A DNA stretch of 17,044 nucleotides from Lentzea sp. (lineage in GTDB: Bacteria; Actinomycetota; Actinomycetes; Mycobacteriales; Pseudonocardiaceae): positions 1-17,044 of the forward strand of contig JASLAV010000595.1 in the NCBI GenBank assembly GCA_030146905.1, in the 5' to 3' direction. Below, piece by piece: positions 1 through 15,125 of this stretch (positions are counted from its first letter, which is position 1; the number at the start of each line of letters is the position of its first letter). A model generated the notes under the pieces. That model searched no databases. It was not told the DNA's origin and worked only from the letters and a program-made list of their open reading frames with translations. Both the position numbers and the translations under genes were made by a program.

Positions 1-16
1 CCCCCACGATTTTCAC

Positions 17-21
17 GGGAG
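17..21 (+). promoter_or_regulatory. Ribosome binding site of pyrG
   Basis: GGGAG lies 8 nt before GTG at 30 but only 5 nt before TTG at 27. This spacing supports the GTG start. Confidence 0.55.
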
Positions 22-29
22 CCCCGTTG

Positions 30-1708
<1,679 letters not shown>

Positions 1709-1712
<4 letters not shown>

Positions 1713-2329
1713 CGTCGAGGCACGACTTCAGGACCGTCTCCAGCGAGGACGTGCACGTCGGGAAGATCCTGGCGCTGCGCGTCGACGAGGTGGAGATGCC
1801 CGGCGGCGGCACGGCCAAGCGCGAGATCGTCGAGCACACCGGCGCCGTCGCGGTCGTCGCGGTCGACGACGAGGGCCAGGTCACGCTGGTCCACCAGTAC
1901 CGGCACGCGCTGGGCAGGCACCTGTGGGAGCTGCCGGCGGGCCTGCTCGACCACGAGGGCGAGCAGCCCGTGGTCGGTGCGCGCCGCGAGCTCGCGGAGG
2001 AGGTCGGGCTCGCCGCGGAGCAGTGGCACGTGCTGGTCGACGTCGCCGCGTCGCCCGGTTTCACCGACGAGGTCGTGCGCGTGTTCCTGGCGCGCGAGCT
2101 GTCCGAGGTCGACCGCGACGTGCAGGGCGAGGAGGAAGCGGATCTGGAGGTCCACCGCTTCCCGCTCGCCGAGGCCGTGCGGATGGTGCTGTCCGGCGAG
2201 ATCGTCAACGCCTCCTCCGTCGCCGGGCTGCTCGCGGCCCGCGAGGTGGTGGAGGGACGGGTGGAGCCGCGTCCGGCCGACGCGCCCTTCCGCGACAAGC
2301 CGACCCGGTTCGTGGCCCGCAAGAAGTAG
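1709..2329 (+). CDS. NUDIX hydrolase, ADP-ribose pyrophosphatase type
   Basis: A 206-residue NUDIX protein that probably hydrolyses ADP-ribose to AMP and ribose 5-phosphate. The NUDIX box spans residues 78-101, with G78, E85 and the metal-binding core R93-E-L-A-E-E-V-G-L101. The first spacer of the box has one residue more than the classic G-x5-E pattern. From memory, mycobacterial Rv1700, the ADP-ribose pyrophosphatase next to pyrG, has the same spacing. SPGFTDE at 115-121 and the acidic EEEAD at 141-145 also fit that subfamily. GTG at 1709 overlaps the pyrG stop by 4 nt. The gene ends in TAG at 2327-2329, which is also the first half of the next gene's -10 box. The substrate is inferred from synteny and subfamily; the fold is certain. 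Confidence 0.9.
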
Positions 2330-2332
2330 GTT
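2327..2332 (+). promoter_or_regulatory. -10 box of a leaderless promoter for the DUF2752 gene
   Basis: TAGGTT (TANNNT) ends 6 nt before ATG 2339, so transcription would start at or next to the start codon. No Shine-Dalgarno sequence is present. No clear -35 hexamer is visible 17 nt upstream. The hexamer includes the NUDIX stop codon. Confidence 0.5.
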
Positions 2333-2338
2333 GGGCTG

Positions 2339-2734
2339 ATGCGGACGCTGAAGGGTGCCTTCTCGCGGTTGAAGGCGCCCTTCGGCCTTCTCGCGCTCGG
2401 CGGGGCCGGTGCGGTCGTGCTGCTGTTCGTCGACCCGAACAAGCCCGGCAACCTGCTGCCGAAGTGCCCGTTCAACTGGCTGACGGGCCTGGACTGCCCC
2501 GGATGCGGGGCCACGCGCATGCTGCACGCGCTGCTGCACGGTGACGTCGTCAGCGCGTTCCACCACAACGCGGTGCTGCTCGCGCTGGGCGTTCCGCTGG
2601 CCCTGTGGCTGTTCGGGCGCTGGACCCGCGACAGGTGGACAGGGGAACGGCGATCCGTGCCGAAGTCGGTCGGTGTCGCCGTTCTCGTCGTCGCGGCGGT
2701 GTGGGGTGTGGGCAGGAACCTCGCGGGGATCTAG
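2339..2734 (+). CDS. DUF2752 small membrane protein
   Basis: A 131-residue protein of unknown function matching the DUF2752 pattern. The diagnostic segment is LDCPGCGATR at 51-60, with Cys53 and Cys56 in a CxxCGxTR arrangement, and a further Cys43 just before it. After it come HALLHGDV and HHNAVLLALGVPLALW, also typical of the family. Three hydrophobic segments (about 16-31, 77-93 and 110-125) suggest an integral membrane protein. The N-terminus has a short internal repeat (LKGAFSR, LKAPFGL) encoded over a DNA inverted repeat. No Shine-Dalgarno precedes ATG 2339, and the upstream -10 box suggests a leaderless mRNA. The neighbouring TM2-domain gene is convergent and shares the terminator. Function cannot be stated. 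Confidence 0.8.
   Translation: MRTLKGAFSRLKAPFGLLALGGAGAVVLLFVDPNKPGNLLPKCPFNWLTGLDCPGCGATRMLHALLHGDVVSAFHHNAVLLALGVPLALWLFGRWTRDRWTGERRSVPKSVGVAVLVVAAVWGVGRNLAGI
2350..2383 (+). repeat. Inverted repeat inside the first codons of the DUF2752 gene
   Basis: GAAGGGTGCCTTC (2350-2362) and GAAGGCGCCCTTC (2371-2383) form a 13-bp stem with one G-U pair and an 8-nt loop. It starts 11 nt after the start codon of an apparently leaderless gene and 20 nt after the NUDIX stop. It could be an attenuator or 5' mRNA structure, a partial terminator for pyrG-NUDIX, or a by-product of the LKGAFSR/LKAPFGL codon repeat. Confidence 0.6.
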
Positions 2735-2771
2735 TGGTGTGGCCCGGCAACGGGCCGGGTCGCGCCACTAG
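2731..2771. terminator. Bidirectional terminator holding both convergent stop codons
   Basis: The inner perfect stem GGCCCG/CGGGCC (2741-2746 with 2751-2756) has a GCAA tetraloop. It is enclosed by an outer perfect arm CTAGTGG/CCACTAG (2731-2737 with 2765-2771). The TAG stops of the DUF2752 gene (2732-2734, plus) and the TM2 gene (2768-2770, minus) pair with each other in the outer arm. No U-tract follows, as is common in actinomycetes. Confidence 0.75.
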
Positions 2772-3382
2772 TCGCGGAGCTTGCGGCCCTGCGCGTCCGT
2801 GCCGCCGCTGACCAGGATGATGATCCCGTCGATCAGCGACCAGATGCCGCAGCCGCCGCAGGTCAGCAGCTGGGCGACGCCGATGCCCACGTGCCCGGTG
2901 TAGAAGCGGCCGATGCCCAGGTTGCCCAGGAACAGCTGCAGCACGCCCGCGGCGATCTTCGACTTGTCCGACAGCGGCACGCCGGTGATCGGGTCGAAGC
3001 CGTACGGCGCGGCCGGGTTCGCGTAGCCCGTGCCCGGCGGCACCATGCCGGGAGGAGGCGGCGGCACGTACTGCTGGTGTGATCCGGTGGGCGGCGGGTA
3101 GTACGGCTGCGTGGACTGGGGCGGGAAGCCCTGCGGTGGCGGTGGCACGGCCGCGAACGGCACCGAGGGCGGTGCGAGGAACGGCGGGTGCGGCTGCGGC
3201 AGGTCGCGGAACAGCTCCGCGAGCTCGTGGTAGGACTGCGCGCCGGACGCGCGGTTCACCCTGTCCTGGTACTCCGTGATGTCGAGCCGCGCCATCGCGA
3301 AGTGGTCGTTGAGCGCGGTGATCGCTTCTTCGCGCTGCTGGTTGCCGATGCGCTGCTGCTCCGGCCCGAATGCTTCTGACAC
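2768..3382 (-). CDS. DUF1707 and TM2 domain membrane protein
   Basis: A 204-residue three-part protein. Residues about 11-63 ([18 protein letters not shown] onward) fit the actinobacterial DUF1707/SHOCT-like domain. Residues 64-128 are a Pro/Tyr/Gln-rich linker with repeated PPP runs. Residues 138-192 are a TM2 domain: two membrane helices around a turn, with [11 protein letters not shown], a CGGCG turn at 175-179 and the downstream LIDGIII. Function of such proteins is unknown; a membrane role is inferred. GTG at 3382 is chosen because DUF1707 begins right after it. An upstream in-frame ATG at 3454 would overlap the ald coding region and adds unrelated sequence. The gene is divergent from ald across 53 bp and convergent with the DUF2752 gene. 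Confidence 0.82.
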
Positions 3383-3390
3383 GGCTGAGC

Positions 3391-3396
3391 ACGTTA
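3391..3396 (-). promoter_or_regulatory. Possible -10 box for the TM2 gene
   Basis: On the minus strand TAACGT lies 8 nt before GTG 3382, predicting a leader of 0-2 nt. No convincing -35 element is visible. The ald promoter is on the opposite strand in the same 53-bp gap, so the two may interfere. Confidence 0.35.
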
Positions 3397-3423
3397 TCCG
3401 ATGCAGGAGATCGACATCGGGAA

Positions 3424-3429
3424 TACGCT
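3424..3429 (+). promoter_or_regulatory. ald: -10 box of a leaderless promoter for ald
   Basis: TACGCT lies exactly 6 nt before ATG 3436, and no Shine-Dalgarno is present in between. The transcript is predicted to begin at or next to the start codon. The -35 region is weak. Confidence 0.55.
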
Positions 3430-3435
3430 GCGACG

Positions 3436-4506
3436 ATGCGGGTCGGTGTCCCAAAGGAGATCAAGAACCACGAGTACCGGGTGGCGATCACACCCGCTGG
3501 AGTGGTCGAACTGGTGCGCCGCGGTCACGACGTCGTCATCGAGCAGGACGCCGGTGCCGGCTCGTCGTTCCCCGACCACGAGTACACGGCGGCGGGCGCG
3601 CGCATCGCGCCGTCGGCCGACGAGGTGTGGGGTCTCGCGGACCTGGTGCTGAAGGTCAAGGAACCGATCGAGCCCGAGTACCACCGCATGCGCCGTGGCC
3701 AGGTGCTCTTCACCTACCTGCACCTCGCGGCCGGTCCGGAGTGCACCAGGGCGATCGTGTCCTCCGGCATCACGGCCATCGCCTACGAGACCGTGCAGCT
3801 GCCGGACGGGTCGTTGCCGTTGCTGGCGCCGATGAGCGAGATCGCCGGGCGGATGGCGGCCCAGGTGGGCGCGCACTGCCTGGAACGCGCGCAAGGAGGC
3901 CGAGGGGTGCTGCTCGGCGGGGCGCCCGGTGTCGCGGCGGGCAAGGTCGCGGTGATCGGCGCCGGCGTGGCGGGGATGAACGCCGCGACCATGGCGGTCG
4001 GCATGCAGGCCGAGGTCGTCGTGCTCGACACCAACGTCAACCGGTTGCGGCAGATCGACTTCACCTACCGCGGGCACCTGCAGACCATCGCGTCGAACGC
4101 CTACGAGATCGACAAGGCCTGCCGCTGGGCGGATCTCGTCGTCGGCGCCGTGCTGGTGCCCGGTGCCAGGGCGCCGAGGCTCGTCAGCAACGAACTGGTG
4201 TCCAGGATGCGTTCCGGGAGCGTGCTCGTCGACATCGCGATCGATCAAGGCGGCTGCTTCGAGGATTCGCGTCCCACCACGCACGACGCGCCGACGTACC
4301 GTGTGCACGACTCCGTGTTCTACTGCGTTGCGAACATGCCGGGCGCGGTGCCGAACACGTCGACCTACGCTTTGACGAACGTGACGTTGCCGTACGTGAT
4401 CGCGTTGGCGGACAGAGGTTTCGACGATGCCGTGGCATCGGATCCAGCACTCGCGAAGGGCGTCAACGTGCGGGACGGGGAGATCGTGCTGGAAGGGCTG
4501 GAGTGA
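3436..4506 (+). CDS. ald: Alanine dehydrogenase
   Basis: Catalyses reversible NAD-dependent oxidative deamination of L-alanine to pyruvate and ammonia. The 356-residue product starts with the family signature [17 protein letters not shown]. It has every key residue known from mycobacterial Ald at the same number: Arg15, Lys75 (in VKEP), His96 and Asp270. The Rossmann motif is IGAGVAG around 174-180. Length is slightly below the usual 370 or so, but both ends look complete, including the C-terminal [20 protein letters not shown] stretch at 301-320. ATG 3436 gives the conserved N-terminus and follows a -10 box by 6 nt. It is coupled to xerD by a 4-nt GTGA overlap, a metabolic gene driving a recombinase gene. 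Its location here, rather than elsewhere as in Mycobacterium, is a lineage difference. Confidence 0.96.
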
Positions 4507-5402
4507 TCCCGGGAGCGGTCACTGACCTGGTGGCGACCTACCTCGACCACCTCGCCGTGGAACGCGGCACCGCCCGCAACACGCTCGACTCCTACACCAG
4601 GGACCTGCGCCGCTACACCGAACACCTGGAGTCCGCCGGTGTGACGGATCTGGGCGCGGTGACCGAGAGGCACGTGAGCGAGTTCCTGGCCGCGTTGCGG
4701 GAAAGCGGGCTCGCGGCGTCGTCGGCGGCCAGGACCTTGGTCGCCGTGCGGGGACTGCACCGCTTCGCGCACCGCGAAGGCGTTGTGCCGCACGACGTGG
4801 CGAAGGCCGTGCACCCGCCGTCACCGCCCAAGCGGCTGCCGAAAGCATTGCCCGTCAATGATGTTCTGACGTTGCTCGACACCGTCGGGAACCTGCGGGA
4901 CAAGGCGTTGCTGGAGCTGCTGTACTCGACGGGCGCGCGGATCTCCGAGGTCGTCGGGCTGGACGTCGACGACATCGACGCGGGCGAGCGGACCGTGCTG
5001 CTGGACGGGAAAGGCGGGAAGCAACGCCTGGTCCCCGTCGGACGGCCGGCGCTGGCGGCGGTCGACGCGTACCTGGTCCGCGCGCGCCCGGCGCTGGCGG
5101 CCAAAGGTCGTGGCACACCCGCGTTGTTCTTGAACGCGCGCGGCGGAAGGCTTTCGAGGCAGAGCGCGTGGACCGTCCTGAAGACCGCGGCGGAGGAAGC
5201 CGGGATCACCGCGGCGGTGTCTCCCCACACGTTGCGACATTCGTTCGCCACCCATCTGCTGGAAGGGGGTGCCGACGTTCGGGTGGTGCAGGAACTTCTC
5301 GGGCACGCATCGGTTACGACCACTCAGGTGTACACGCTGGTAACCGTTACGACTTTGAGGGAGGTCTACGCAACTGCACACCCTCGGGCCACTGGAACAT
5401 GA
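4503..5402 (+). CDS. xerD: Tyrosine recombinase XerD
   Basis: Site-specific recombinase that, with XerC, resolves chromosome dimers at dif near the terminus. The 299-residue product has the N-terminal SAM-like core-binding domain (about 7-92) and the catalytic domain (about 113-295). The catalytic residues are all present: Arg146 in TGARISEV, Lys170 or Lys173 in DGKGGKQR, His242 and Arg245 in [15 protein letters not shown], His268 in LGHAS, and the nucleophile Tyr277 in TTQVYT. The tail [12 protein letters not shown] is typical of XerD rather than of phage integrases. GTG 4503 overlaps the ald stop by 4 nt. Position upstream of parA-scpAB fits a housekeeping recombinase, not a mobile element. 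Confidence 0.94.
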
Positions 5403-5414
5403 GGCTTCCACGGG

Positions 5415-5420
5415 TACGGT
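5415..5420 (+). promoter_or_regulatory. -10 box of a leaderless promoter for the ArsR-type regulator
   Basis: TACGGT ends 6 nt before GTG 5427, with no Shine-Dalgarno. A weak -35 (CTGGAA, 5392-5397) lies 17 nt upstream. A short inverted repeat TGGAA-N8-TTCCA (5393-5397 and 5406-5410) overlaps the -35 and might be an autoregulatory operator. Confidence 0.5.
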
Positions 5421-5426
5421 GGTCGG

Positions 5427-5756
5427 GTGCCGAACTTGGACGAGCCGTCCCCACAGGCCATTGATCTAGCCGCTGTGCTGCACGCGCTGAGCGACCCGAC
5501 ACGGCTCGCGGTCGTTCGCCAGATCCAGTCGAGCGGTGAGAGGCTGTGCGGGGCCTTCGAGGTCGACGTCGCGAAATCGACCCTCTCCCAGCACCTGCGC
5601 GTGTTGCGCGAAGCGGGCATCACACGAACACGCTGCCGCGGCAACCAGCGCTGGGTGTCGCTGCGCCGGGATGACCTGGATCTTCTCTTCCCCGGCCTGC
5701 TGGACGTGGTGCTCTCGGCGGTTGACAGGCGAACACGAACGGATGTCGCTGTCTGA
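5427..5756 (+). CDS. ArsR-family winged-helix transcriptional regulator
   Basis: A 109-residue DNA-binding protein of the ArsR/SmtB fold. The winged helix-turn-helix covers about 13-85: the family opening LHALSDPTRLAVVRQI at 18-33, the recognition helix KSTLSQHLRVLREAG at 50-64, and a wing with RCRGNQRWVSL. It lacks the classical metal-binding ELCVCD motif in alpha-3. The only cysteines are Cys41 and Cys70, so it is probably not a classical arsenic or cadmium sensor. Targets are unknown. It has its own leaderless-type promoter inside the 3' flank of xerD and lies 101 bp before parA in the same direction. Regulation of the parA operon is possible but unproven. Confidence 0.85.
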   Translation: MPNLDEPSPQAIDLAAVLHALSDPTRLAVVRQIQSSGERLCGAFEVDVAKSTLSQHLRVLREAGITRTRCRGNQRWVSLRRDDLDLLFPGLLDVVLSAVDRRTRTDVAV

Positions 5757-5785
5757 CCAAGTCTTGACAAGACCGGCGAGGCGCG

Positions 5786-5814
5786 TTGCCGCTCGCACGG
5801 GTGCGGCCTACGCT
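5786..5814 (+). promoter_or_regulatory. Promoter of the parA-scpAB operon
   Basis: TTGCCG (5786-5791), a 17-nt spacer and TACGCT (5809-5814) form a plausible sigma-70-type promoter, with a predicted start near 5821. The leader would be about 37 nt and carries a good Shine-Dalgarno at 5843-5848. A short dyad GTCTT-GAC-AAGAC at 5761-5773 lies just upstream. Confidence 0.5.
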
Positions 5815-5842
5815 GCGCCCGGGAGAGACGTCCACGACCAGT

Positions 5843-5848
5843 GAGGGA
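5843..5848 (+). promoter_or_regulatory. Ribosome binding site of parA
   Basis: GAGGGA sits 9 nt before ATG 5858. It decides this start over upstream in-frame codons, and it shows that this gene is leadered, unlike ald and the ArsR gene before it. Confidence 0.7.
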
Positions 5849-5857
5849 ACGCCAGTC

Positions 5858-6781
5858 ATGTCGACACCGGAGCACGCTTTCGCGCCCCGTGCCGACCTGA
5901 ACCTGGCCCCGCACGCCGCGCCGGTGGACGACGTCGCCCACGAACAGCTCGACGGCATCGGACCGACGGGCCGCACCCGCCGGCGCATCCCGGATCCGCC
6001 GCCGTTGCTGCACCACGGCCCGGCGAAGATCCTCGCGGTGTGCAACCAGAAGGGCGGCGTCGGCAAGACGACGACGACCATCAACCTGGGCGCGGCGCTG
6101 GCCGAGTACGGCAGACGGGTGCTGCTCGTCGACTTCGACCCCCAGGGCGCGCTGTCCGTGGGCCTCGGCGTGCACCCGCACCAGCTGGAAACCACGATCT
6201 ACAACGTCATCATGGAGGGCAACACCGCCGTCCCCGACGTCATCCGCAAGACCATGATCGACGAGATGGACCTGCTGCCGAGCAACATCGACCTGTCGGC
6301 GGCGGAGATCCAGCTGGTGTCCGAGGTGGGCCGAGAGCACACGCTCGTGCGCACCTTACGCCCCGTCATCGACCAGTACGACTACGTGCTGGTCGACTGC
6401 CAGCCGTCGCTCGGCCTGCTCACGGTGAACGCCCTCGCGGCCGCGGACGGAGTGCTGATCCCGCTGGAGTGCGAGTTCTTCTCGCTGCGCGGGGTGGCGC
6501 TGCTCATCGACACCATCGAGAAGGTCAAGGAACGCTTGAACCCCAAGCTCACCATCACCGGCATCCTCGCCACGATGTACGACCCGCGCACGCTGCACTC
6601 GCGCGAGGTCATGGCCCGCGTCGTGGAGGCGTTCGGCGACATCGTGTTCGACGCGGTCATCAACCGCACGGTGCGCTTCCCGGAGACCACCGTGGCCGGC
6701 GAGCCGATCACCCGCTGGGCCCCGCGTTCCTCCGGCGCCAACGCCTACCGGGCGCTGGCCCGCGAGGTGATCGCCCGGTGA
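5858..6781 (+). CDS. ParA/MinD-type ATPase (Soj-like) upstream of scpAB
   Basis: A 307-residue deviant Walker ATPase resembling mycobacterial Rv1708. ParA proteins form ATP-dependent dimers on DNA and move or position cargo such as partition complexes. Visible motifs are KGGVGKTT at 65-72 (deviant Walker A with its signature lysine), VDFDPQGALSVGLG from 91 (switch I region), and Walker B VLVDCQPSLG with Asp180. The first 55 residues are a Pro/Arg-rich extension (TGRTRRRIPDPPP at 38-50), as in Rv1708. It is not the oriC-linked chromosomal ParA, since no ParB gene follows. Instead it is coupled by a GTGA overlap to a small ribbon-helix-helix-like protein and then to scpA-scpB. That context suggests a role in chromosome organisation. 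The partner and cargo are unknown. Confidence 0.92.
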   Translation: MSTPEHAFAPRADLNLAPHAAPVDDVAHEQLDGIGPTGRTRRRIPDPPPLLHHGPAKILAVCNQKGGVGKTTTTINLGAALAEYGRRVLLVDFDPQGALSVGLGVHPHQLETTIYNVIMEGNTAVPDVIRKTMIDEMDLLPSNIDLSAAEIQLVSEVGREHTLVRTLRPVIDQYDYVLVDCQPSLGLLTVNALAAADGVLIPLECEFFSLRGVALLIDTIEKVKERLNPKLTITGILATMYDPRTLHSREVMARVVEAFGDIVFDAVINRTVRFPETTVAGEPITRWAPRSSGANAYRALAREVIAR

Positions 6782-7095
6782 ACCGCCGCCCTTCCTTGCC
6801 GGGGGCGGCCGAGCTGTTCCGGCTGACCGCTGCGCCCACGCCCGCTCCCGAGCCCGTCGACCCGCCCGTGCAGCGCCGCGGCACCGGGCGGACGAAGCAC
6901 ACCACGAAGATCACGGTGTACGTGTCGGACGAGGAGCTGCTGGCGCTGGAACAGGCGCGGCTGACGTTGCGCGCCTCCCACGCGCTGGGCGTCGACCGCG
7001 GGCGCGTGGTGCGCGAGGCCATCGCCATCGTGCTGGACGACCTCGAGAGGCTCGGCGACGAGTCGCTGCTGGTACGCAGGTTGCGCGAGCAGTGA
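6778..7095 (+). CDS. Small ribbon-helix-helix-like protein, putative ParA partner
   Basis: A 105-residue basic protein. The first 43 residues are Pro/Arg-rich and probably flexible, with a short motif GAAELFRLT at 9-17. The C-terminal half looks like a ribbon-helix-helix DNA-binding fold: beta strand KITVYVS (44-50), helix DEELLALEQARLTL (51-64), then helix DRGRVVREAIAIVLDDLERL (73-92). Its start and stop overlap parA and scpA by 4 nt each as GTGA, so the three genes are almost certainly translated together. Plasmid ParA systems often use a small RHH protein (ParG, omega) as the DNA-binding partner, so the same role is inferred here. It could instead be an autoregulator or an accessory factor for ScpAB. 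Fold assignment is from pattern only. Confidence 0.75.
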   Translation: MNRRPSLPGAAELFRLTAAPTPAPEPVDPPVQRRGTGRTKHTTKITVYVSDEELLALEQARLTLRASHALGVDRGRVVREAIAIVLDDLERLGDESLLVRRLREQ

Positions 7096-7925
7096 CCGAG
7101 GACGCCCCTGCCGAGGTTGCCGTTGCGGACGACGGCAAGTTCAAGGTCAGGCTCACGAACTTCGAAGGTCCGTTCGACCTGCTGCTGCAGCTGATCTCGC
7201 AGCACACGCTCGACGTGACCGAGGTGGCGCTGCACACGGTCACCGACGACTTCATCGCGCACCTCCGCGGCATGGGGGAGGCGTGGGACCTCGACGAGAC
7301 CACCGAGTTCCTGGTGATCGCGGCGACGCTGCTCGACCTGAAGGCCGCCCGCCTGCTGCCCACCGGTGACGTCGAGGACGAGGACGACCTCGCCCTGCTG
7401 GAGGCGCGGGACCTGCTGTTCGCCCGGTTGCTGCAGTACCGGGCCTACAAGCAGGTCGCGGCGCTGTTCGCCGAGCTGGAACAGGGTGCCTACCGGCGCT
7501 ACCCGCGGTCGGTGGCGCTGGAGCAGCGGTTCGAGGGCCTGTTGCCGGAGGTGATGCTCGGCGTCACACCCGGCAAGTTCGCCCTGATCGCGGCGTCCGC
7601 GTTCCGGCCGAAGCAGAAGCGGACCCTGTCGGTCGCGCACATCCACCAGCACAGGGTGTCGATCCGCGAGACGGCCGACCTGCTGCGGACGATGCTGATC
7701 GAGCGCGGCACGGCGTCGTTCGCGGAGATCGTCGCCGACTGCACGGAGACCATGGAGGTCGTGGCGCGGTTCCTGGCGCTGCTGGAGCTGTACCGGGAGA
7801 AGTCGCTGGCCTTCGAGCAGGAGGACCCGCTCGGCCCGCTGCGGGTGACGTGGGTCGGCGGGACGTTGGAGCAGGTGCAGACGCAGGCACACGCCGGCGA
7901 CGAGGACGAGGACTACGGCGGATGA
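7092..7925 (+). CDS. scpA: Segregation and condensation protein A
   Basis: The kleisin subunit that bridges the two heads of the SMC dimer in bacterial condensin, acting on chromosome compaction and segregation. The 277-residue product has the N-terminal kleisin signature FKVRLTNFEGPFDLLLQLIS at 17-36, followed by LDVTEVALHTVTDDFIAHL. An acidic Glu/Asp stretch (about 93-103) follows. The C-terminal winged helix (about 190-255) contains SFAEIVADCTETMEVVARFL and LALLELYREKSLAFEQ, the surface that contacts the SMC head in known kleisins. GTG 7092 overlaps the RHH gene by 4 nt, and the stop overlaps the scpB ATG by 4 nt. Length and order are normal for actinobacteria. Confidence 0.95.
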   Translation: MTEDAPAEVAVADDGKFKVRLTNFEGPFDLLLQLISQHTLDVTEVALHTVTDDFIAHLRGMGEAWDLDETTEFLVIAATLLDLKAARLLPTGDVEDEDDLALLEARDLLFARLLQYRAYKQVAALFAELEQGAYRRYPRSVALEQRFEGLLPEVMLGVTPGKFALIAASAFRPKQKRTLSVAHIHQHRVSIRETADLLRTMLIERGTASFAEIVADCTETMEVVARFLALLELYREKSLAFEQEDPLGPLRVTWVGGTLEQVQTQAHAGDEDEDYGG

Positions 7926-8629
7926 GCGAGCCATTGGTGGGACCGGACGCGGCGGAGATCCCGAAGCCGGGACCGGCGTTCGACGGGGACGGTGCGCCTG
8001 TTGCCGAGCCGGACGCCGCCGCCCTCGAGGCGCAGCTCCTCGCGACCGCACCCGAAGAGGTCATCGAGGACAGCGGTCTTCCCGACCTCACCGACGCCGC
8101 CACCTTCGAGGCCGCGCTCGAGTCCGTGCTGCTCGTCGTCGACAGCCCGATCACCGAAGACCAGCTCAGCAGCGCACTCGAGCAGCCGGTGAAGCGGGTC
8201 AAGCAGGCACTCCGTACACTTTCCACCCGGTACACCGAGTCCGGCAGCGGCATCGACCTGCGCAGGGCGGGAGACGGCTGGCGGTTCTACACGCGGGACC
8301 GCTTCGCCCCGTTCGTGGAGAAGCTGCTGCTCGACGGCCAGCGCGCGAAACTCACCCGCGCTGCCCTGGAGACGCTCGCGGTGATCGCCTACCGGCAGCC
8401 CGTCACGAGGGCGCGGATCGCGGCGGTGCGCGGCGTCAACGTCGACGGTGTGATCCGGACCCTGGTCGCACGGGGGCTCATCGAGGAGACGGGCACCGAC
8501 AGCGACACGGGTGGGATCCTGTACCGCACGACCGAACTGTTCCTGGAGCGGTTGGGGCTGTCGTCCTTGCACGACCTGCCGCCAATCGCGCCGCTGCTGC
8601 CCGAAGTGGATGCGATCGACGATGTCTGA
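7922..8629 (+). CDS. scpB: Segregation and condensation protein B
   Basis: A dimeric winged-helix (kite) subunit that binds the ScpA linker in SMC-ScpAB condensin. Of 235 residues, the first 58 or so are an acidic, Pro/Ala-rich extension. The two tandem winged helices then follow: FEALESVLLVV-type opening and SPITEDQLSSALE in the first, and LTRAALETLAVIAYRQPVTR at about 140-159 in the second. VRGVNVDGVIRTLVARGLI is the usual ScpB signature. ATG 7922 overlaps the scpA stop as ATGA. The start of rluB lies 8 nt inside the 3' end, so the operon continues without a gap. The long N-terminal extension is the only unusual point and is probably disordered. Confidence 0.95.
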   Translation: MSEPLVGPDAAEIPKPGPAFDGDGAPVAEPDAAALEAQLLATAPEEVIEDSGLPDLTDAATFEAALESVLLVVDSPITEDQLSSALEQPVKRVKQALRTLSTRYTESGSGIDLRRAGDGWRFYTRDRFAPFVEKLLLDGQRAKLTRAALETLAVIAYRQPVTRARIAAVRGVNVDGVIRTLVARGLIEETGTDSDTGGILYRTTELFLERLGLSSLHDLPPIAPLLPEVDAIDDV

Positions 8630-9356
8630 GAACGAGGGCGTGCGCCTGCAGAAGGTGCTCGCGCAGGCCGGGATCGCCTCCCGCCGTGCTTCGGAGGAGC
8701 TGATCGACCAGGGACGCGTCCAGGTCGACGGCGAGGTCGTGCGCGAACAAGGGCGCAGGATCGACCCCGAGACGGCCGTGGTGCACGTCGACGGCGTGCG
8801 GGTGCAGATCCGCGAGGACGTCGTCACGATCGCGCTGAACAAGCCGTTCGGGATGCTCTCCACGATGGAGGACGACCTGGGCCGCCCGTGCGTCGGCGAC
8901 CTGGTGCGCAACCGCGCGGAGCGGCTGTTCCACGTCGGGCGGCTCGACGCCGAGACCGAGGGGCTGCTGCTGCTCACGAACGACGGCGAGCTCGCGCACC
9001 GGCTGATGCACCCGAGCTACAACGTCAAGAAGACCTACCTCGCCGAGGTGCCAGGCCCCGTCGAGAAGGGGCTCGGCAAGAAGCTGAAGGCGGGCGTCGA
9101 GCTCGAGGACGGCCCGGTCAAGGTCGACTCCTTCAAGCTCATCAGCGCCGTGCCCGGCAAGGCGCTCGTCGAGGTCGTGCTGCACGAGGGCCGCAAGCAC
9201 ATCGTGCGCCGCCTGCTCGAGCACGTCGGCTACCCGGTGCAGTCGCTGGTGCGCGTCGCGGTCGGTGACGTGTCGCTGGGCAACCAGCGGCCCGGCTCGA
9301 TGCGCGTGCTGAACCGCCAGGAAGTCGGCGGGCTGTACAAGCTCGTCGGTCTCTGA
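8622..9356 (+). CDS. 23S rRNA pseudouridine synthase, RluB/RsuA family
   Basis: Isomerises a specific uridine in rRNA to pseudouridine. The 244-residue product starts with an S4 RNA-binding domain: VRLQKVLAQAGIASRRASEE at 7-26, then LIDQGRVQVDGEVV at 27-40. The catalytic domain (about 67-235) has FHVGRLDAETEGLLLLTNDG, in which Asp109 is the nucleophilic aspartate. Later come KTYLAEV and the GRKHIVRRLLEHVGYPV motif typical of RluB/RluE/RsuA members. It corresponds to Rv1711 in synteny. It overlaps scpB by 8 nt and is the last gene of the parA-scpAB operon, followed by a strong terminator. The exact rRNA position modified cannot be read from the sequence. Confidence 0.93.
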   Translation: MSENEGVRLQKVLAQAGIASRRASEELIDQGRVQVDGEVVREQGRRIDPETAVVHVDGVRVQIREDVVTIALNKPFGMLSTMEDDLGRPCVGDLVRNRAERLFHVGRLDAETEGLLLLTNDGELAHRLMHPSYNVKKTYLAEVPGPVEKGLGKKLKAGVELEDGPVKVDSFKLISAVPGKALVEVVLHEGRKHIVRRLLEHVGYPVQSLVRVAVGDVSLGNQRPGSMRVLNRQEVGGLYKLVGL

Positions 9357-9375
9357 CCACACTGACCACCTCCGC

Positions 9376-9408
9376 TCGTCCCTCCGGCCCCAGAAGCCGG
9401 AGGGACGA
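9376..9408 (+). terminator. Terminator of the parA-scpAB-rluB operon
   Basis: TCGTCCCTCCGGC (9376-9388) and GCCGGAGGGACGA (9396-9408) form a perfect 13-bp stem with a 7-nt loop, 20 nt after the rluB stop. No U-tract follows, as in many actinomycete terminators. Confidence 0.85.
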
Positions 9409-9538
9409 CCCGCGGTGGCCGCGGTGCCGTCAGCGAGCGGGGTTGACCGATCACGAACCACGCACCCGAATGGTGAGTGGTTAGCGGGTCGTTAGACGGC
9501 GGCTGAACCTCTGGTGGACAATCCGGCCAGGAGGCGGC
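9409..9538. other. Intergenic region upstream of the STAND protein gene
   Basis: This non-coding stretch holds an inverted repeat AACCAC (9456-9461) / GTGGTT (9477-9482) with a 15-nt spacer, a possible operator. A weak promoter may be TTAGAC (9492-9497) with GACAAT (9517-9522) at 19 nt spacing, giving a leader of only about 10 nt. No gene is seen. Conserved actinobacterial gene order (cmk and der after rluB) is broken here. Confidence 0.35.
9529..9534 (+). promoter_or_regulatory. Ribosome binding site of the STAND protein gene
   Basis: A perfect AGGAGG sits only 4 nt before ATG 9539, closer than the usual 5-9 nt. It is still the strongest Shine-Dalgarno in the window and fixes the start. Confidence 0.7.
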
Positions 9539-12262
9539 ATGCCACGAGGTGAACGACCCCTGGGTCCGGAGGACACCGCGCTGCTGCGGTTCGCCGGTGA
9601 CCTGCGCAGACTGCGTGACCAGGCAGGCAAACCGAGCTACCGCGAACTGGCCAGGCGCGCGAACTACTCGCCGACCGCGTTGTCCGACGCGGCCGGCGGC
9701 CGCAAGCTGCCGTCGCTGGCGTTGACGCTCGCGTTCGTCAAGGCGTGCGAGGCCGACCCCGCGCCGTGGACGAAGCGCTGGCGGGAGCTGGCGGCCGAGC
9801 ACGCGCAGCCGTTGCACCCGAACGCCCCGTACCCCGGCGCCGAGCCGTTCACCGAGCACGACGCGAAGCGGTACTTCGGACGGGAGTACCTCGTCGAGCA
9901 GATCGCCGAGTCGGTCAGGACGAAGCCCCTCACCCTCGTGTTCGGCGTCTCCGGGGCCGGCAGGACGTCGTTGCTGCGGGCCGGTGTGAAGCCCGCGCTC
10001 GACGACGCCGTGGTGGTCACGCCGGGGAACGGCGACCCGGTCGACGACCTGGTGGAGGCGCTCGCCGGTGTCTTCGCGGCCGACCGGTTCGCCCAGGAGA
10101 TCCGGCAGGACCCCGGCCACCTCGCGCTGATGATCCGCCTGCACCGTCCCGGTCTCGTCCTGCTCGTCGACGACGCCGAGAAGGTCCTCGGCGCGGACGA
10201 CTTCCTCGCCGCCGTCACCCGCTGCCCGCACGTGGTCCTCGCGGTCCGCGCGGACCAGCGGCAGCGCTGCCTCGACGCGGGCCTGTCCGGCACCGGGATC
10301 ACCATCGAGCCGATGAGCGCCGACCAGCTGCGCCGCGCGATCACCGAACCCGCCGTCAAGATCGGCGCCTCCGTCGAGACCGCGGTCATCGCCCAGCTGG
10401 TCGCCGACGCCGCGAACCGGCACGCGCTGCCGTTGGTGCAGCAGGCGCTCGTCGAGGCGTGGCGGCGCAAGCGCGGCATGACGCTGTCGCTGGCCGGGTT
10501 CGAGGAGTCCGGCGGCATCGAGCACGTCGTCGTGAGCGCCGCGGAGGCGTTCTTCGACCGCCTTCCCGAGACCGGTCGCAGGGCGGCCAGAGGGGTGTTC
10601 CTGAGGCTCGTCTCCGTGCGGCGCAACGGACTCCCGCAACGCAGGACCCGCAGGCTCGACACCGAGCCGCACCTGGTGGACCTGCTCGTCAAGGCCAGGC
10701 TCGTGACGCTCACCGACGACGGCGCCGAGCTCACCCACGACGCGCTGCTGCGCTGGCCGCGGCTCGCCGCGTGGATCGACGAGGAACGCGACAACCTCAG
10801 GACCCACCAGCAGCTCGTCACCGCGATGGAGCTGTGGGAGGCGAGCGACCGCGACCCGCTCGCCCTCTACCGGGGTGCGCGCCTGCGCAAGGCCAAGGAA
10901 CTCGGCGAGTTCTTGACGGCTCAGGAGCGCAGGTTCGTCGACATCAGCACCAGGCGCGAGACCCGCCGCTCGACGGCGTTGATCGCGGTGGTGGCCGTGC
11001 TGATCGCCCTGGTGCCGGGGACGGTCGTCTACGCGCTCTCCAACGAGCGCAAGCTCGTCGCGGCGCACGACAGGGAGCTCGGCGGCAAGGCGATCTCCGA
11101 GTCGGAGGCGCTGATGGAACAGCGCCGGCCGTACGCGGACAAGTACGCGCTGGTCGGTTACAAGGTCAACCCGTCGCCCGAGGCGGAGAAGGTGCTGCGG
11201 CTGGCCAACGCCGTCACGCGCGGCATCCCGTTCACCGGCACGCCGAAGGACGACGCGGACGTGCTCGTCGCGCCGCGCGGGGAGATGGCGGCGGTGACCG
11301 ACGAGGACGGCACCGACAGGATGTGGAACCTCGACGAGGACCGCGCGACGCCCGGCAAGAGGTTCGCCGACGGCCACCGCGTCCTGAAGCTCGCCGAACG
11401 CCGTGCCATCACGAGGGACAGCACCGGCCGTGAACACGTGTGGGCCGTCAACCACCCCGACGACATCACGTACCTCGCCGCGCTGCCGGACCGGTTCAGG
11501 ACGCTCGACCTCAGCGCGGACGGCTCGCGCGTCGTCGGCAAGGTCGGGGACGCGGTCGAGGTCGGGCTGCCGACGCCGGACGAGACCGAGCACGCGGAGC
11601 TGTTCGACCTCAGCGACCCGCGTGCTCCCCGCAAGCTGCCCGTGCCGGTGCGCAACCCCGAGACCCTGGCGCTGAGCCAGGACGGCCGCGAGCTCGCCAC
11701 CGCCGTCTGGGACGCGGCCGCGGGCACCACCACGGTCCAGTTCTGGCGCATCGGCGGCACCGTCGAACCCGCGGCGCCCGCGTTGTCCCAGCGCGTCTAC
11801 GTCCGCGGCATCACCTACAGCGGCGACGGCCGGTGGCTGGCCGTGGAGCATTCGCCGGAGTCCGTCGTCGAGGTGTGGCAGCGCGTGCCCAGCGGGACGC
11901 CCGTGCTGCGGGCACGGCTCGACAGCGCGTTGCGGTACGGCGCCCGCGTCACGTTCTCCGACGACAACCGCGTCGCCGTCGTGCGCGACAACATCTTCGA
12001 GGTGCAGCGGCTCTACACGTCCGGCCGTGCCGCGGACCGGCTCGTCTACGTCGTCGGGCACGGCAACTCGACGAAGGCGGTGTACCGGCCGCAGTACGAG
12101 GACTTCCTCGTGCGCAGCGGAGGTCAGGACCCCGAGCTGCTGCCGTACGACCTCGACAGCGGGCGGATCATCAAGAAGATGTGTGAAAAAGACGGTGCGC
12201 GGCTCACGGACTCCGAATGGGTGAAGAGCTTCGGCGAAGTGGAGCGCGTGGAGGTCTGCTGA
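9539..12262 (+). CDS. HTH - STAND NTPase - transmembrane - beta-propeller protein
   Basis: A 907-residue receptor-like protein of a type common in actinomycetes. Residues about 14-85 look like a helix-turn-helix (YRELARRANYSPTALSDAAG). After a linker, YFGREYLVEQIAES near 112 opens an nSTAND1-type NTPase. Its Walker A reads GVSGAGRTS at 136-144, with Arg142 where lysine is normally found. Walker B is LVLLVDDAEKVL at 206-217. ELTHDALLRWPRL (397-409) is the usual winged-helix end of this family. One membrane helix lies at about 479-500. The C-terminal 400 residues form an irregular WD40-like propeller ending in the family-type LTDSEW...C tail. Such proteins are thought to be signalling switches; specific role and ligand are unknown. 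It is monocistronic and flanked by hairpins. Confidence 0.85.
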   Translation: MPRGERPLGPEDTALLRFAGDLRRLRDQAGKPSYRELARRANYSPTALSDAAGGRKLPSLALTLAFVKACEADPAPWTKRWRELAAEHAQPLHPNAPYPGAEPFTEHDAKRYFGREYLVEQIAESVRTKPLTLVFGVSGAGRTSLLRAGVKPALDDAVVVTPGNGDPVDDLVEALAGVFAADRFAQEIRQDPGHLALMIRLHRPGLVLLVDDAEKVLGADDFLAAVTRCPHVVLAVRADQRQRCLDAGLSGTGITIEPMSADQLRRAITEPAVKIGASVETAVIAQLVADAANRHALPLVQQALVEAWRRKRGMTLSLAGFEESGGIEHVVVSAAEAFFDRLPETGRRAARGVFLRLVSVRRNGLPQRRTRRLDTEPHLVDLLVKARLVTLTDDGAELTHDALLRWPRLAAWIDEERDNLRTHQQLVTAMELWEASDRDPLALYRGARLRKAKELGEFLTAQERRFVDISTRRETRRSTALIAVVAVLIALVPGTVVYALSNERKLVAAHDRELGGKAISESEALMEQRRPYADKYALVGYKVNPSPEAEKVLRLANAVTRGIPFTGTPKDDADVLVAPRGEMAAVTDEDGTDRMWNLDEDRATPGKRFADGHRVLKLAERRAITRDSTGREHVWAVNHPDDITYLAALPDRFRTLDLSADGSRVVGKVGDAVEVGLPTPDETEHAELFDLSDPRAPRKLPVPVRNPETLALSQDGRELATAVWDAAAGTTTVQFWRIGGTVEPAAPALSQRVYVRGITYSGDGRWLAVEHSPESVVEVWQRVPSGTPVLRARLDSALRYGARVTFSDDNRVAVVRDNIFEVQRLYTSGRAADRLVYVVGHGNSTKAVYRPQYEDFLVRSGGQDPELLPYDLDSGRIIKKMCEKDGARLTDSEWVKSFGEVERVEVC

Positions 12263-12263
12263 A

Positions 12264-12280
12264 CCGCCGCGCCGCGGTGG
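12264..12280 (+). terminator. Short hairpin after the STAND protein gene
   Basis: CCGCCGC (12264-12270) pairs with GCGGTGG (12274-12280) through 7 bp, including one G-U, with a 3-nt loop. It starts 2 nt after the stop codon. It is small and lacks a U-tract, so termination is only plausible. Confidence 0.4.
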
Positions 12281-12308
12281 AAACAAGCCGGAGTTGAGCA
12301 AACACGCA

Positions 12309-12337
12309 TTGTGAAGCAGAGATCCACTCTCTAGGGT
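12309..12337 (+). promoter_or_regulatory. Leaderless promoter of the ABC transporter operon
   Basis: TTGTGA (12309-12314), a 17-nt spacer and TAGGGT (12332-12337) match a sigma-70-type promoter. Six bases then separate the -10 from GTG 12344, and there is no Shine-Dalgarno, so the mRNA probably starts at the start codon. This is the clearest promoter in the window. Confidence 0.65.
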
Positions 12338-12343
12338 GACCGG

Positions 12344-13087
12344 GTGCGTGCGTTCACAAGGGGAATCCTCGGCATCGCCGGATTTCTCGTGCTGTGGGAG
12401 CTCTTAGGACGCTCCCCCCTCCTTCCTGCACACGCGCTCCCCCCACCGTCCGTCGTGTTCGGTGAGCTCGTGACGCAGTTGACCTCTCCAGAGTTCATCA
12501 GTCATGTCGTGGCAACGGTGCTGGCGTTGCTGATCGCCATCGGGATCGCGATCGCCGTCGCGGTGCCGAGTGGACTCGTTCTCGGCAGCGTCCCCGCAGT
12601 GCGTCACGCGACGCGCGCGGTGATCGAGTTCCTGCGCCCGATTCCTTCTGTGGCACTGATCCCGCTCGCGCTGGTGATGCTCGGCTTCGGGCCGGAAACG
12701 AAGATCACCCTCGCGGTCTACGCGGCGTTGTGGCCGATCCTCTTCAACACCATCTACGCGCTCGACGAGCTCGACCAGTTGCAGGTCGAGACGGCGAAGG
12801 TCTTCGGGACCGGCCGGGTCGGCGTGCTGTTCAGGGTGGCACTGCCGAGCGCGTTGCCCTTCGTGCTCACCGGGATCCGGCTCGCGGCCACGACGGCGCT
12901 GGTCGTGATGGTGAGCGTCGAGATCATGGCGAGCAGCCAGATCGGCATCGGCTACTTCATCATGGAGGCCCGCAGCGGGCCCGGCCGGATGGACCAGGTG
13001 CTCGTGGGCACCGTGGTCGCGGGCGTGATCGGCCTGCTGCTCAACAACGGTCTCGAGCGCGTCCGCCGACGTTGGGTGGCCTGGTGA
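12344..13087 (+). CDS. ABC importer permease 1 (SsuC/TauC-type)
   Basis: A 247-residue integral membrane protein of the nitrate/sulfonate/taurine importer family. Hydrophobic segments lie at about 8-21, 55-80, 95-112, 117-133, 178-195 and 215-233. Family features include PSVVFGELVTQL near the start, FLRPIPSVALIPLALVMLGF in the core, and an EAA loop (ETAKVFGTGRVGVLFRVALP at 149-168) that docks on the ATPase. The EAA loop keeps its conserved glycine. It is first in a three-gene transporter operon and overlaps permease 2 by 4 nt (GTGA). The start GTG has no Shine-Dalgarno but follows a promoter by 6 nt. The substrate cannot be deduced, because no binding protein is encoded nearby. Confidence 0.9.
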   Translation: MRAFTRGILGIAGFLVLWELLGRSPLLPAHALPPPSVVFGELVTQLTSPEFISHVVATVLALLIAIGIAIAVAVPSGLVLGSVPAVRHATRAVIEFLRPIPSVALIPLALVMLGFGPETKITLAVYAALWPILFNTIYALDELDQLQVETAKVFGTGRVGVLFRVALPSALPFVLTGIRLAATTALVVMVSVEIMASSQIGIGYFIMEARSGPGRMDQVLVGTVVAGVIGLLLNNGLERVRRRWVAW

Positions 13088-13851
13088 ACAAGTTCCTCCA
13101 ACGGTGGGCCGTCTTCGCCGGTCTCGTCGTCGTGTGGCAGGTGTTCGCCTGGTGGGGCGAGAACCCGTTCTTCCCCCCGCCCTCCGACATCGTGTCGGCG
13201 GCCTGGGAGTGGTGGGTGGTCGAGCCGGAGAACTTCACCGAGCACGTCGTCCCCTCGATCGTCAGGCTGCTGACGGGGTGGGCGATCGCCTCGGTGATCG
13301 GTGTCGCGCTCGGCCTGCTGCTGGGTCGTTCCGACCGGGCGATGGAGTACGCGGGACCGCTCCTGGTGTTCCTGCGCTCGATCCCGCCGCCGGCGCTGGT
13401 CCCGGTGTTCCTGCTGCTGTTCAAGGCCGGTACGTCGATGCAGCTGGCGACGATCATCTTCGGGGTGGTCTGGCCGGTGCTGCTGAACAGCGTCGACGGG
13501 GCGCGTTCCGTCGACGTGACCAAAGTGGACACTTCGGCCGTCTTCCGGATCCCCCGCCGGCAGTGGGTGTTCGGGGTGGTTCTCCCCGCCGCCTCACCGA
13601 AGATCTTCGCCGGCCTGAGGCTCTCGCTCTCGCTCTCGCTGGTGCTGATGGTCATCTCCGAGCTCGTGGGCACGGACAACGGCATCGGCTCCCAGCTCAT
13701 GCAGGCACAGCGCGAGTTCGACTACACGCGCATGTGGGCCGGGATCGTCCTTCTGGGCGTGCTCGGGTACGGACTCAACACCGCGCTTCTCGCGGTGGAA
13801 CGCAGAGCATTGGCGTGGCAACCGAGGAGTCGGGATGAGCAACATGCTTGA
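13084..13851 (+). CDS. ABC importer permease 2 (SsuC/TauC-type)
   Basis: A 255-residue membrane permease of the same family as its neighbour but clearly different in sequence, so the importer is probably a heterodimeric channel. Hydrophobic segments lie at about 8-24, 64-81, 91-113, 121-137, 163-195 and 218-238. The core segment VFLRSIPPPALVPVFLLLF is well conserved. The EAA loop is degenerate: DVTKVDTSAVFRIPRRQ at 144-160 lacks the EAA triplet and has Arg in place of the usual glycine, whereas permease 1 keeps it. GTG 13084 overlaps the previous stop. Its own 3' end overlaps the ATPase gene by 17 nt. Confidence 0.88.
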   Translation: MNKFLQRWAVFAGLVVVWQVFAWWGENPFFPPPSDIVSAAWEWWVVEPENFTEHVVPSIVRLLTGWAIASVIGVALGLLLGRSDRAMEYAGPLLVFLRSIPPPALVPVFLLLFKAGTSMQLATIIFGVVWPVLLNSVDGARSVDVTKVDTSAVFRIPRRQWVFGVVLPAASPKIFAGLRLSLSLSLVLMVISELVGTDNGIGSQLMQAQREFDYTRMWAGIVLLGVLGYGLNTALLAVERRALAWQPRSRDEQHA

Positions 13852-14632
13852 GGTGGCCGACCTCGGCCACTCCTACGGCGACTACGAGGCGATCGGTGGG
13901 CTTTCGTTCACCGTGCGCGCGGGCGAGCTCGTCTGCGTGGTGGGACCGTCCGGCTGCGGCAAGTCCACCTTGCTGCGGACGATCTCCGGGCTCATCGAGC
14001 CCTCGCGCGGAGACGTGAAGCTGAACGGATCGCACCTGGCGGTGGTGTTCCAGGACTACCAGCGTTCGCTCTTCCCGTGGCTCACGGTGCAGGGCAACGT
14101 GGAGTTCCCGCTGCGCTCCCTGCGTCGCGCGGAGCGCCGCAAACGTGCCGCTGAGGCACTGGAGTGGGTGGGGCTGTCCGCGGCCGCTCGCAAGCGTCCG
14201 TGGCAGCTTTCCGGTGGTATGCAGCAGCGTGTGGCCATCGCGCGTGCTCTGGCGTACCGGCCCGCGTTGTTGTTGATGGACGAGCCGTTCGCCTCGGTGG
14301 ACGCGCAGACCCGCTTCGAGTTGGAGGACCTGTTGCTTCGCGTGCGCCGTGAACACGACACGACCGTCCTCGTCGTCACGCACGACATCGACGAGTCCGT
14401 CTACCTCGGTGACAGGATCCTGGTGCTGAGCAACTCTCCCGCACGGCTGGTGGCGAACCTGGAGGTTCCGCTGCCCGCCGAGCGCGACCAGGTGACGACG
14501 CGGACCGCCGACGGCTTCGTCGCGCTGCGGTCCAAGGTGGCGCGGCTCCTCAACGTCGGCAAGCCGACGATGGACGTCGAGAAGTGGGCAGCCGCCGAGC
14601 GCGAGTCGCTGAGCGAGACCGTCTCCACCTGA
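13835..14632 (+). CDS. ABC importer ATP-binding protein (SsuB/TauB-type)
   Basis: A 265-residue ATPase that powers the importer formed by the two upstream permeases. All motifs are intact: Walker A GPSGCGKST at 37-45, Q-loop VFQDYQRSLFPWLTV with Gln73, signature LSGGMQQR at 125-132, Walker B ALLLMDEP ending in Asp149-Glu150, the D-loop ASVD, and the switch His183 in VTHDIDES. QRSLFPW after the Q-loop is typical of nitrate/sulfonate/taurine ATPases. ATG 13835 is assumed; ATG 13844 (residue 4) is an in-frame alternative. It overlaps permease 2 by 17 nt, and a small unknown gene follows 7 nt after it. Confidence 0.92.
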   Translation: MSNMLEVADLGHSYGDYEAIGGLSFTVRAGELVCVVGPSGCGKSTLLRTISGLIEPSRGDVKLNGSHLAVVFQDYQRSLFPWLTVQGNVEFPLRSLRRAERRKRAAEALEWVGLSAAARKRPWQLSGGMQQRVAIARALAYRPALLLMDEPFASVDAQTRFELEDLLLRVRREHDTTVLVVTHDIDESVYLGDRILVLSNSPARLVANLEVPLPAERDQVTTRTADGFVALRSKVARLLNVGKPTMDVEKWAAAERESLSETVST

Positions 14633-14639
14633 TCCTTCC

Positions 14640-15050
14640 GTGACGGACTGGAACCTGTTCCTCGTCGTCGACGCGGAACCCGTCGAGCTGTCCGGTGGGC
14701 GGGACAGGATCGTGCTGCTCGAAGGCCGGTGCCTGCTCGTGTTGCCGGACAACGGGTACCAGCTCCTGCTGGCGTGGGCGGTGGGCCCGCGCCGGGTGGT
14801 CCGCACCCCGGCACCGGTGCATCCCGACCAGGAGATCGTCGACACGTTCGTCAACTCCTACCTCGTGGAGGCCGGCGTGCCGCCGCGGCCGCGCGGGTTC
14901 GCCTGGTACCTCGACCTCCCGGCCGGTGTGGCGCCTTCTGACGTGTGGCGCGCGGTCGACGCGGGAGGGGTGCACGGGTCGCCTGTGGACCTCCACCGCG
15001 TCCGGGAGGCGATGGAACGGGGTGTCGCCGAGCTCTACGGCACCGCCTGA
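14640..15050 (+). CDS. Hypothetical protein at the end of the ABC operon
   Basis: A 136-residue protein I do not recognise. It looks soluble: no signal peptide or membrane helix, with a beta-rich start (NLFLVVDAEPVEL, RIVLLEGRCLLVLP) and a helical C-terminus (DVWRAVDAGG, HRVREAMERGVAELYG). GTG 14640 lies 7 nt after the ATPase stop, with no Shine-Dalgarno of its own, so it is probably translated by coupling. A strong terminator follows within 33 nt. Codon use (GC-rich third positions) looks like a real gene. Its operon position suggests an accessory or metabolic link to the transported compound, but nothing in the sequence proves this. Confidence 0.7.
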   Translation: MTDWNLFLVVDAEPVELSGGRDRIVLLEGRCLLVLPDNGYQLLLAWAVGPRRVVRTPAPVHPDQEIVDTFVNSYLVEAGVPPRPRGFAWYLDLPAGVAPSDVWRAVDAGGVHGSPVDLHRVREAMERGVAELYGTA

Positions 15051-15083
15051 CGAAACCTCTACAAAACCTCTGGCACAACTGGA

Positions 15084-15125
15084 GAAGATCAGCCCCGGAC
15101 CCGCCGCGGTCCGGGGCTGATCTTC
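15084..15125. terminator. 18-bp perfect-stem terminator between convergent genes
   Basis: GAAGATCAGCCCCGGACC (15084-15101) and its exact complement (15108-15125) form an 18-bp stem with a 6-nt loop. The AAGATC/GATCTT ends give short A/U flanks on both strands, so it may stop transcription of the ABC operon (plus) and the IniB-like gene (minus). Confidence 0.88.

Follow-up and report, generated by a model that had tools for sequence, protein, structure and literature searches.

Does the second ParA-type ATPase of actinobacterial chromosomes, whose gene lies beside the condensin genes scpA and scpB, work without a partner? The question is raised by a locus of Lentzea sp. (GenBank assembly GCA_030146905.1, contig JASLAV010000595.1, positions 1 to 17,044), and this whole stretch of 17,044 nt is called the window. 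ParAs of this type (PldP, Rv1708, ParA2) have so far been treated as orphans. On the sequence comparisons presented here, the supposedly partnerless ParA2 turns out in many actinobacteria to travel with a small, adaptor-like protein of the predicted ribbon-helix-helix (RHH) type and with a conserved DNA signal. We consider the small protein probably to be the cognate RHH partner of ParA2, an autorepressor and a probable activator of the ParA2 ATPase, as in the ParFG and SegAB systems. The features concerned are the following.

5858 to 6781, forward strand: parA2, an orphan ParA gene of the PldP/Rv1708 type (307 residues; deviant Walker A motif KGGVGKT at residues 65–71)
5859 to 5866, no strand: palindrome TGTCGACA over the parA start codon (ATG TCG ACA), a candidate RHH operator; sole exact copy in the window
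6778 to 7095, forward strand: small RHH gene, as predicted (105 residues; GTG start; 4-nt overlap with the parA stop)
6778 to 6828, forward strand: N-terminal peptide MNRRPSLPGAAELFRLT (residues 1–17), proposed ParA2-docking motif
6829 to 6888, forward strand: variable linker (residues 18–37)
6889 to 7095, forward strand: predicted RHH domain (residues 38–105 and stop; ribbon ~43–49, helix A 51–68, helix B 74–95, C-terminal helix 97–104)

Identity of the ParA

The ParA of the window is already known: it is the second ParA of actinobacteria, represented by SCO1772/ParA2 (PMC4255298), PldP of Corynebacterium and Rv1708. PMC numbers here and below refer to excerpts of the papers. We make this assignment because the peptide IDLSAAEIQLV is common to the window protein and to Rv1708, as quoted in PMC10482377, and because scpA and scpB adjoin; a locus beside scpAB is shared by Rv1708 and PldP (PMC10482377, PMC3989709). 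Residues ~52–307 align with Soj-type chains, and residues 1–54 form an extension ahead of this Soj-like part. Pfam assigns the protein to AAA_31/CbiA and lists no helix-turn-helix (HTH) family in it. It is thus a ParA with a deviant Walker A box and no HTH domain, as in the ParFG-like (type Ib) class, and a chromosomal ParA adjoining scpAB apart from the parAB locus, as in the orphan ParA2/PldP group. The excerpts of PMC3989709 describe PldP as having no partner ParB. An earlier note on this DNA had remarked that there is no ParB; this holds for the operon, while an ordinary ParB was found elsewhere in all 18 related genomes tested.

In M. smegmatis, the ParA and scpA genes have the consecutive locus tags MSMEG_3743 and MSMEG_3742 (PMC10482377), and therefore no annotated gene lies between them. 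This gap-free annotation may be the reason why the partner was overlooked. Corynebacterium presumably has the same arrangement.

The small gene accompanies parA2

The earlier note had paired the ParA with an RHH-like protein, and a neighbourhood survey confirmed that the two are conserved together: of 146 loci, at least 140 have parA2 upstream of the small gene in the same orientation, a count that also required 620 nt of upstream sequence. The start of the small gene overlaps the parA stop in 121 of 137 loci (those covered by the twelve commonest spacings). A co-conserved partner gene directly downstream of parA2 is a further property of ParFG-like systems.

The small protein has 2,050 homologues at E ≤ 0.001, the best named ones from Lentzea. 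Its gene was detected in 45 of 60 related genomes by a single-sequence search and in at least 44 of 396 genomes of the phylum, a lower bound since at most nine candidates were scored per genome. In a sample of the class, 101 of 216 genomes and 42 of 96 genera carry it, and scpA was found in 208 of the 216. Named carriers among the best 80 of 569 loci include Lentzea, Amycolatopsis, Saccharopolyspora, Streptomyces, Nocardioides, Kribbella, Microlunatus and Blastococcus. Whole-genome profile searches of 15 genomes without the small gene beside parA2 gave a best match of E 0.0507. A plasmid or phage origin was also considered and dropped; single-sequence tblastn of plasmid and phage collections gave no match to the small protein.

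In a ParA2 tree of 100 rows, the presence of the small gene changes eight times, at least six of them on well-supported branches. Repeated loss is the simplest reading, because lineages without the gene are nested among carriers. In five sister comparisons hand-picked from the first tree, ParA2 seemed to evolve faster once the partner had been lost; this idea was dropped, as a larger tree gave seven longer and five shorter branches.

Linkage to scpAB

The condensin genes complete the operon in the window.

7092 to 7925, forward strand: scpA (Pfam SMC_ScpA), operon neighbour with variable linkage
7922 to 8629, forward strand: scpB (Pfam SMC_ScpB), operon neighbour

As the earlier note had read from the sequence, the coordinates of the open reading frames place parA2, the small gene, scpA and scpB in succession with 4-nt overlaps (GTGA, GTGA and ATGA). 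The note further suggested that the pair could couple ParA movement to the loading of SMC–ScpAB, as a second chromosomal positioning system. The operon of the window is consistent with this, as is the reported binding of Rv1708 to ScpA and ParB (PMC10482377). A specific tie to ScpAB did not hold up across the other loci, however. The scpA gene was found in 126 loci. In 90 of these, no more than 250 nt separate its start from the small gene; in the other 36 the distance is greater, reaching 7,050 nt in L062. In 20 more loci, the fetched stretch does not contain scpA. In addition, parA2 is followed by scpA without the small gene in 16 loci of a first set and 20 of a second. We therefore reject condensin as an obligatory partner, since scpA is often displaced while parA2 and the small gene are kept together, and we regard the proposed loader as very improbable. 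The conserved unit is parA2-rhh, not rhh-scpA, because the small gene remains downstream of parA2 even at loci where scpA is kilobases away.

We also observed, in four loci where the small gene is missing (L052, L053, L059 and L060), a hydrophobic, membrane-protein-like open reading frame of ~220 codons between parA2 and scpA, which we take to be M50-type.

Architecture and predicted fold of the small protein

Alignments of 22 and 27 sequences revealed a three-part architecture: an N-terminal peptide with the consensus M-x-R-R-x-S-L-P-G-A-x-E-L-F-R-x-T, a linker of very variable length, and a C-terminal domain with the consensus H-D-E-K-I-T-V-Y...D-R-G-R-I-V-R-E-A. The peptide RRxSLPGAxELFRxT is present in 143 of 146 loci, the exceptions being L080, L113 and L124. 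A DNA pattern for the peptide core matched 46 of 60 related genomes (one of them, G046, by chance) versus 2 for a reversed control. Among later carriers, no peptide match was found in L202 and L206, and in six further f95 genomes the profile match begins only at positions 27–48, which by itself is no proof of peptide loss. Across 25 Lentzea-type genes, 3 of the 17 peptide codons are invariant, 10 show synonymous changes only and 4 change the amino acid; the 67 codons of the RHH part show a comparable distribution (16, 33 and 18).

The predicted models contain the three helices listed above and an extended ribbon stretch, with no strand in the monomer. The ribbon strand of RHH proteins forms only in the dimer. 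The structure prediction suggested in the earlier note thus gives an RHH-like fold, as expected for a member of the RHH superfamily, and the note's strand-helix-helix guess at residues 44–92 agrees with the predicted helices and ribbon. Comparison with a single CopG sequence gave a weak match in the right register. A first full-length model had no match in the Protein Data Bank (PDB), and the family profile hit only designed or unrelated chains among PDB sequences. Some database records already name the small protein “Ribbon-helix-helix protein, copG family”. The note knew of no description of it; our searches of the open-access literature, which leaves most subscription papers outside its coverage, likewise found none of the small protein or of a ParA2 partner.

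A palindrome at the start of parA2

The search for DNA signals covered the 600 nt that precede the Walker A codon. The Lentzea loci (L001–L024) were kept out of the 116 discovery loci, which include six near-repeat pairs. The palindrome TGTCGACA occurs exactly in 58 of the 116 loci (56 of 110 after merging of near-repeats) versus none of 106 control stretches, and the runner-up among 8-bp palindromes upstream occurs in 22. Over all 140 loci, Lentzea included, 86 copies fall in 84.0 kb of upstream sequence versus 20 in 984.8 kb elsewhere. In most loci of Pseudonocardiaceae, the palindrome overlaps the parA start codon.

Half-sites (GTCG/CGAC) recur around the palindrome with a period of 8 bp. 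At multiples of 8 bp around 70 non-redundant sites, 62 half-sites were observed versus 19.1 expected; among periods 5 to 14, period 12 ranked second in excess (19 versus 11.5). By comparison, 151 GTCGAC sites elsewhere showed the codon periods 6, 9 and 12, and 54 versus 41.0 at period 8.

Since the palindrome can encode Met-Ser-Thr at the start of ParA, a coding explanation was considered. It is unlikely, because 22 of 62 copies do not share the reading frame of parA and a stop separates 4 others from it, and because A follows ATGTCGAC in 62 of the 71 loci with this reading (related genomes included) even though, among 2,598 Thr codons of the ParA bodies, 145 are ACA.

Other features lie upstream of parA2 in the window. 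An ArsR-type HTH gene (5427–5756), also present in a few related loci (L025, L030), is directly upstream. The block at 5761–5857 is conserved in Lentzea-type genomes and contains a near-perfect inverted repeat, GTCTTGACAAGAC, at 5761–5773.

Loss of the site with the small gene

With the motif fixed in advance, 20 carriers and 20 genomes without the small gene were fetched from the class sample. Seventeen new carriers were used, as L209 lacks the Walker motif and L214 and L216 repeat the discovery loci L157 and L108; two of the non-carriers, L221 and L222, are alike. A relaxed site ([AT]GTCGACA or TGTCGAC[AT]) was found in 12 of 17 carriers versus 1 of 20 non-carriers (Fisher p 5.7e-5), and the exact site in 7 of 17 versus 1 of 20 (p 0.014), both tests ignoring relatedness. 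When the two repeats were included, the relaxed site was found in 13 of 19 carriers (p 3.9e-5). TGTCGACA was again the commonest 8-bp palindrome in the 19 new carrier regions (7 versus 5 for the runner-up), and the 8-bp period reappeared (9 versus 3.6 expected, 14 sites).

Relatedness was taken into account with 17 independent pairs on the best tree of 89 rows, in which many forks are weak; the second tree omitted L100, L136 and L061 (two long branches and one likely contaminant contig). For the relaxed site, a mean of 9.8 pairs changed in the same direction and 0.5 in the opposite one (median sign-test p 0.006). These results indicate that the DNA signal tends to be lost along with the small gene.

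The N-terminal peptide in other proteins

The N-terminal peptide is not confined to the small protein. We observed a family of O-methyltransferases with an N-terminal peptide of the kind seen in the small protein (RRASLPGADELFR/G) at L164 (2719–3438, reverse strand), L168–L172 and L178; the L170 protein reads like the Egicoccus record P0193. A strict peptide pattern is met by 24 of 120 methyltransferase homologues among the matches listed (of 184), 14 in the LFR form and 10 in the LFG form. A profile search with the peptide matched 60 of 396 genomes, and 6 of the 18 places fetched are N-termini resembling the same methyltransferases, all in the LFG form. In genome G346, the peptide is missing from the small protein, and an O-methyltransferase gene, adjoining what by eye appears to be a sigma-factor gene, begins ERRASLPGADELFRPT. 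The peptide may be a portable docking tag.

This distribution raises an alternative, namely that what the pair positions is not DNA but a protein or a part of the divisome, in a PldP-like division role; the RHH part would then serve regulation, and the peptide would mark cargo for ParA2 and could be borrowed by other proteins. The methyltransferases point in this direction, including the further LFG cases and G346, where the peptide sits on the enzyme and not on the small protein. The excerpts of PMC3989709 are also in line with it, since they give minicells and variable cell length, not a segregation defect, as the outcome of pldP deletion. In contrast, the named methyltransferase records come from few groups (Nitriliruptorales, Egicoccus and unplaced actinobacteria), and binding of the peptide to ParA2 is conjectural. 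We consider a protein cargo in place of DNA unlikely.

Further matches to the peptide are of other kinds. Those in G007, G008, G015 and G046 are internal or in the wrong frame and were taken as chance. L173 resembles a cut-off small gene, and in L179 and L180 a different frame contains the peptide or a variant of it. The five peptide-like matches of family f32 (L174–L177, L182) are close to frame ends, and in four of them no start codon precedes the match; they possibly represent another frame of a conserved gene.

Proposed roles of the pair

From the gene pair, the three-part product with its RHH-like predicted fold, and the conserved DNA signal that is lost along with the gene, we infer that the small protein binds DNA, represses its operon, docks on ParA2 and stimulates the ATPase; that the pair moves DNA is likewise inferred. 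An RHH dimer would bind half-sites of the TGTCGACA type that recur in multiples of 8 bp where its own operon begins, and would repress the parA2 operon from this candidate operator. The N-terminal peptide would engage ParA2 and stimulate its ATPase, and nucleoid-bound ParA2 and the RHH–DNA complex would form a partition-like or positioning pair. DNA, a division factor and condensin are candidates for the cargo, and a role of parA2-rhh in SMC–ScpAB loading is at most a possibility.

Several observations weigh against this reading. The first group concerns the small protein itself. In a hidden Markov model search of RHH families, as the earlier note had suggested, Pfam RHH_3 matched 4 of 72 family members weakly at E ≤ 1 (best 0.00095), no RHH model of NCBIfam matched, and Pfam gave nothing significant, and no RHH match, for the window protein. 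A Foldseek search of the PDB gave no match below E 1, and the best library match of the window protein was phrog_6234 of PHROGs, a family of RecBCD inhibitors (28 residues aligned, E 0.0017). Within Lentzea, the amino acids of the peptide are no better conserved than those of the RHH part (4 of 17 versus 18 of 67 codons vary).

The second group concerns the DNA signal. The relaxed site is present in 77 of 116 discovery loci, and about a third to half of carriers lack a site, including the two f111 genomes tried (L211 and L212). The upstream repeats combine palindrome and 8-bp period family-wide; the window has a single palindrome and no 8-bp array. Two non-carriers, L048 and L232, retain the exact palindrome. 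With the exact site, the independent pairs gave a mean of 9.0 in the same and 1.5 in the opposite direction (median p 0.039), and pairs on supported branches alone (five or six) did not reach significance. The third group concerns ParA2: no strong alignment column separates paired from unpaired lineages in a comparison that excluded L239 and L108, and ParA2 can work without the small protein, because genomes without the small gene keep parA2-scpA.

Finally, dedicated sites elsewhere in the chromosome are not demonstrated. In 11 of 12 genomes, the motif WTGTCGACAW outnumbers its reversed control (38 versus 0 in G027), but these comprise 4 of 4 non-carriers as well as 7 of 8 carriers, and no centromere-like cluster is evident, the full position lists of G027 and G003 looking spread by eye. 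This would also suit a small protein that is an RHH autorepressor of the parA2(-scpAB) operon and nothing more, setting the dose of ParA2 and of the condensin kleisin without touching ParA2, with the peptide serving some other end. The palindrome at the parA start and its loss with the small gene agree equally with such a repressor. A pure repressor, however, has no obvious need of a phylum-wide conserved peptide ahead of a highly variable linker, and we think it improbable that repression is the whole function. We favor the cognate partner of ParA2.

With a conserved adaptor, a candidate docking peptide and a DNA site to work from, the role of the second ParA beside scpAB can be tested directly in carriers such as Streptomyces. 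If the proposal is true, ParA–RHH pairs of the plasmid and archaeal type exist on bacterial chromosomes. A bolder extension is that many actinobacteria have a second chromosomal SegAB-like system, in which the RHH adaptor reads arrays of TGTCGACA half-sites and the peptide, found also on the O-methyltransferase, is a portable ParA2 address tag; one ParA gradient would then position several cargos, tuned with condensin through the shared operon. We offer this tentatively, as a possible but rather doubtful scheme.

Comparison with known systems

The parA2-rhh unit is like PldP, Rv1708 and SCO1772 in having the same kind of gene beside scpAB. Chromosomal ParABS offers a comparable partner, with a basic N-terminal peptide before the DNA-binding part; ParB, however, is an HTH protein and CTPase, whereas the small protein is RHH-like and its peptide is different. 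ParB frames from 14 related genomes, selected on LG[RK]G, have a basic N-terminal peptide of the GGLGRGLAALIP kind, and the LG-R/K-GL motif of ParB is reported to contact ParA (PMC13245405). By analogy, the two peptides may do the same job.

The plasmid type Ib systems ParFG-parH (TP228) and delta-omega (pSM19035) consist of a ParA and an RHH partner with a ParA-contacting N-terminal tail, control their own operons, and use short upstream repeats, which are tetramer boxes with spacers in TP228 (PMC7308502) and 7-bp repeats in pSM19035 (PMC9499535). In contrast, parA2-rhh is chromosomal, its repeats have a step of 8 bp with the unit GTCG/CGAC, and its peptide is RRxSLPGAxELFR. The archaeal SegAB system of Sulfolobales likewise has a ParA-type ATPase and a small RHH protein encoded by overlapping chromosomal genes (PMC12284271). 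Its palindrome, TCTAGASTCTAGA, differs from TGTCGACA, and SegB sites are scattered over the chromosome, which is not demonstrated for TGTCGACA here. Among known systems, SegAB and ParFG are the nearest working parallels of parA2-rhh.
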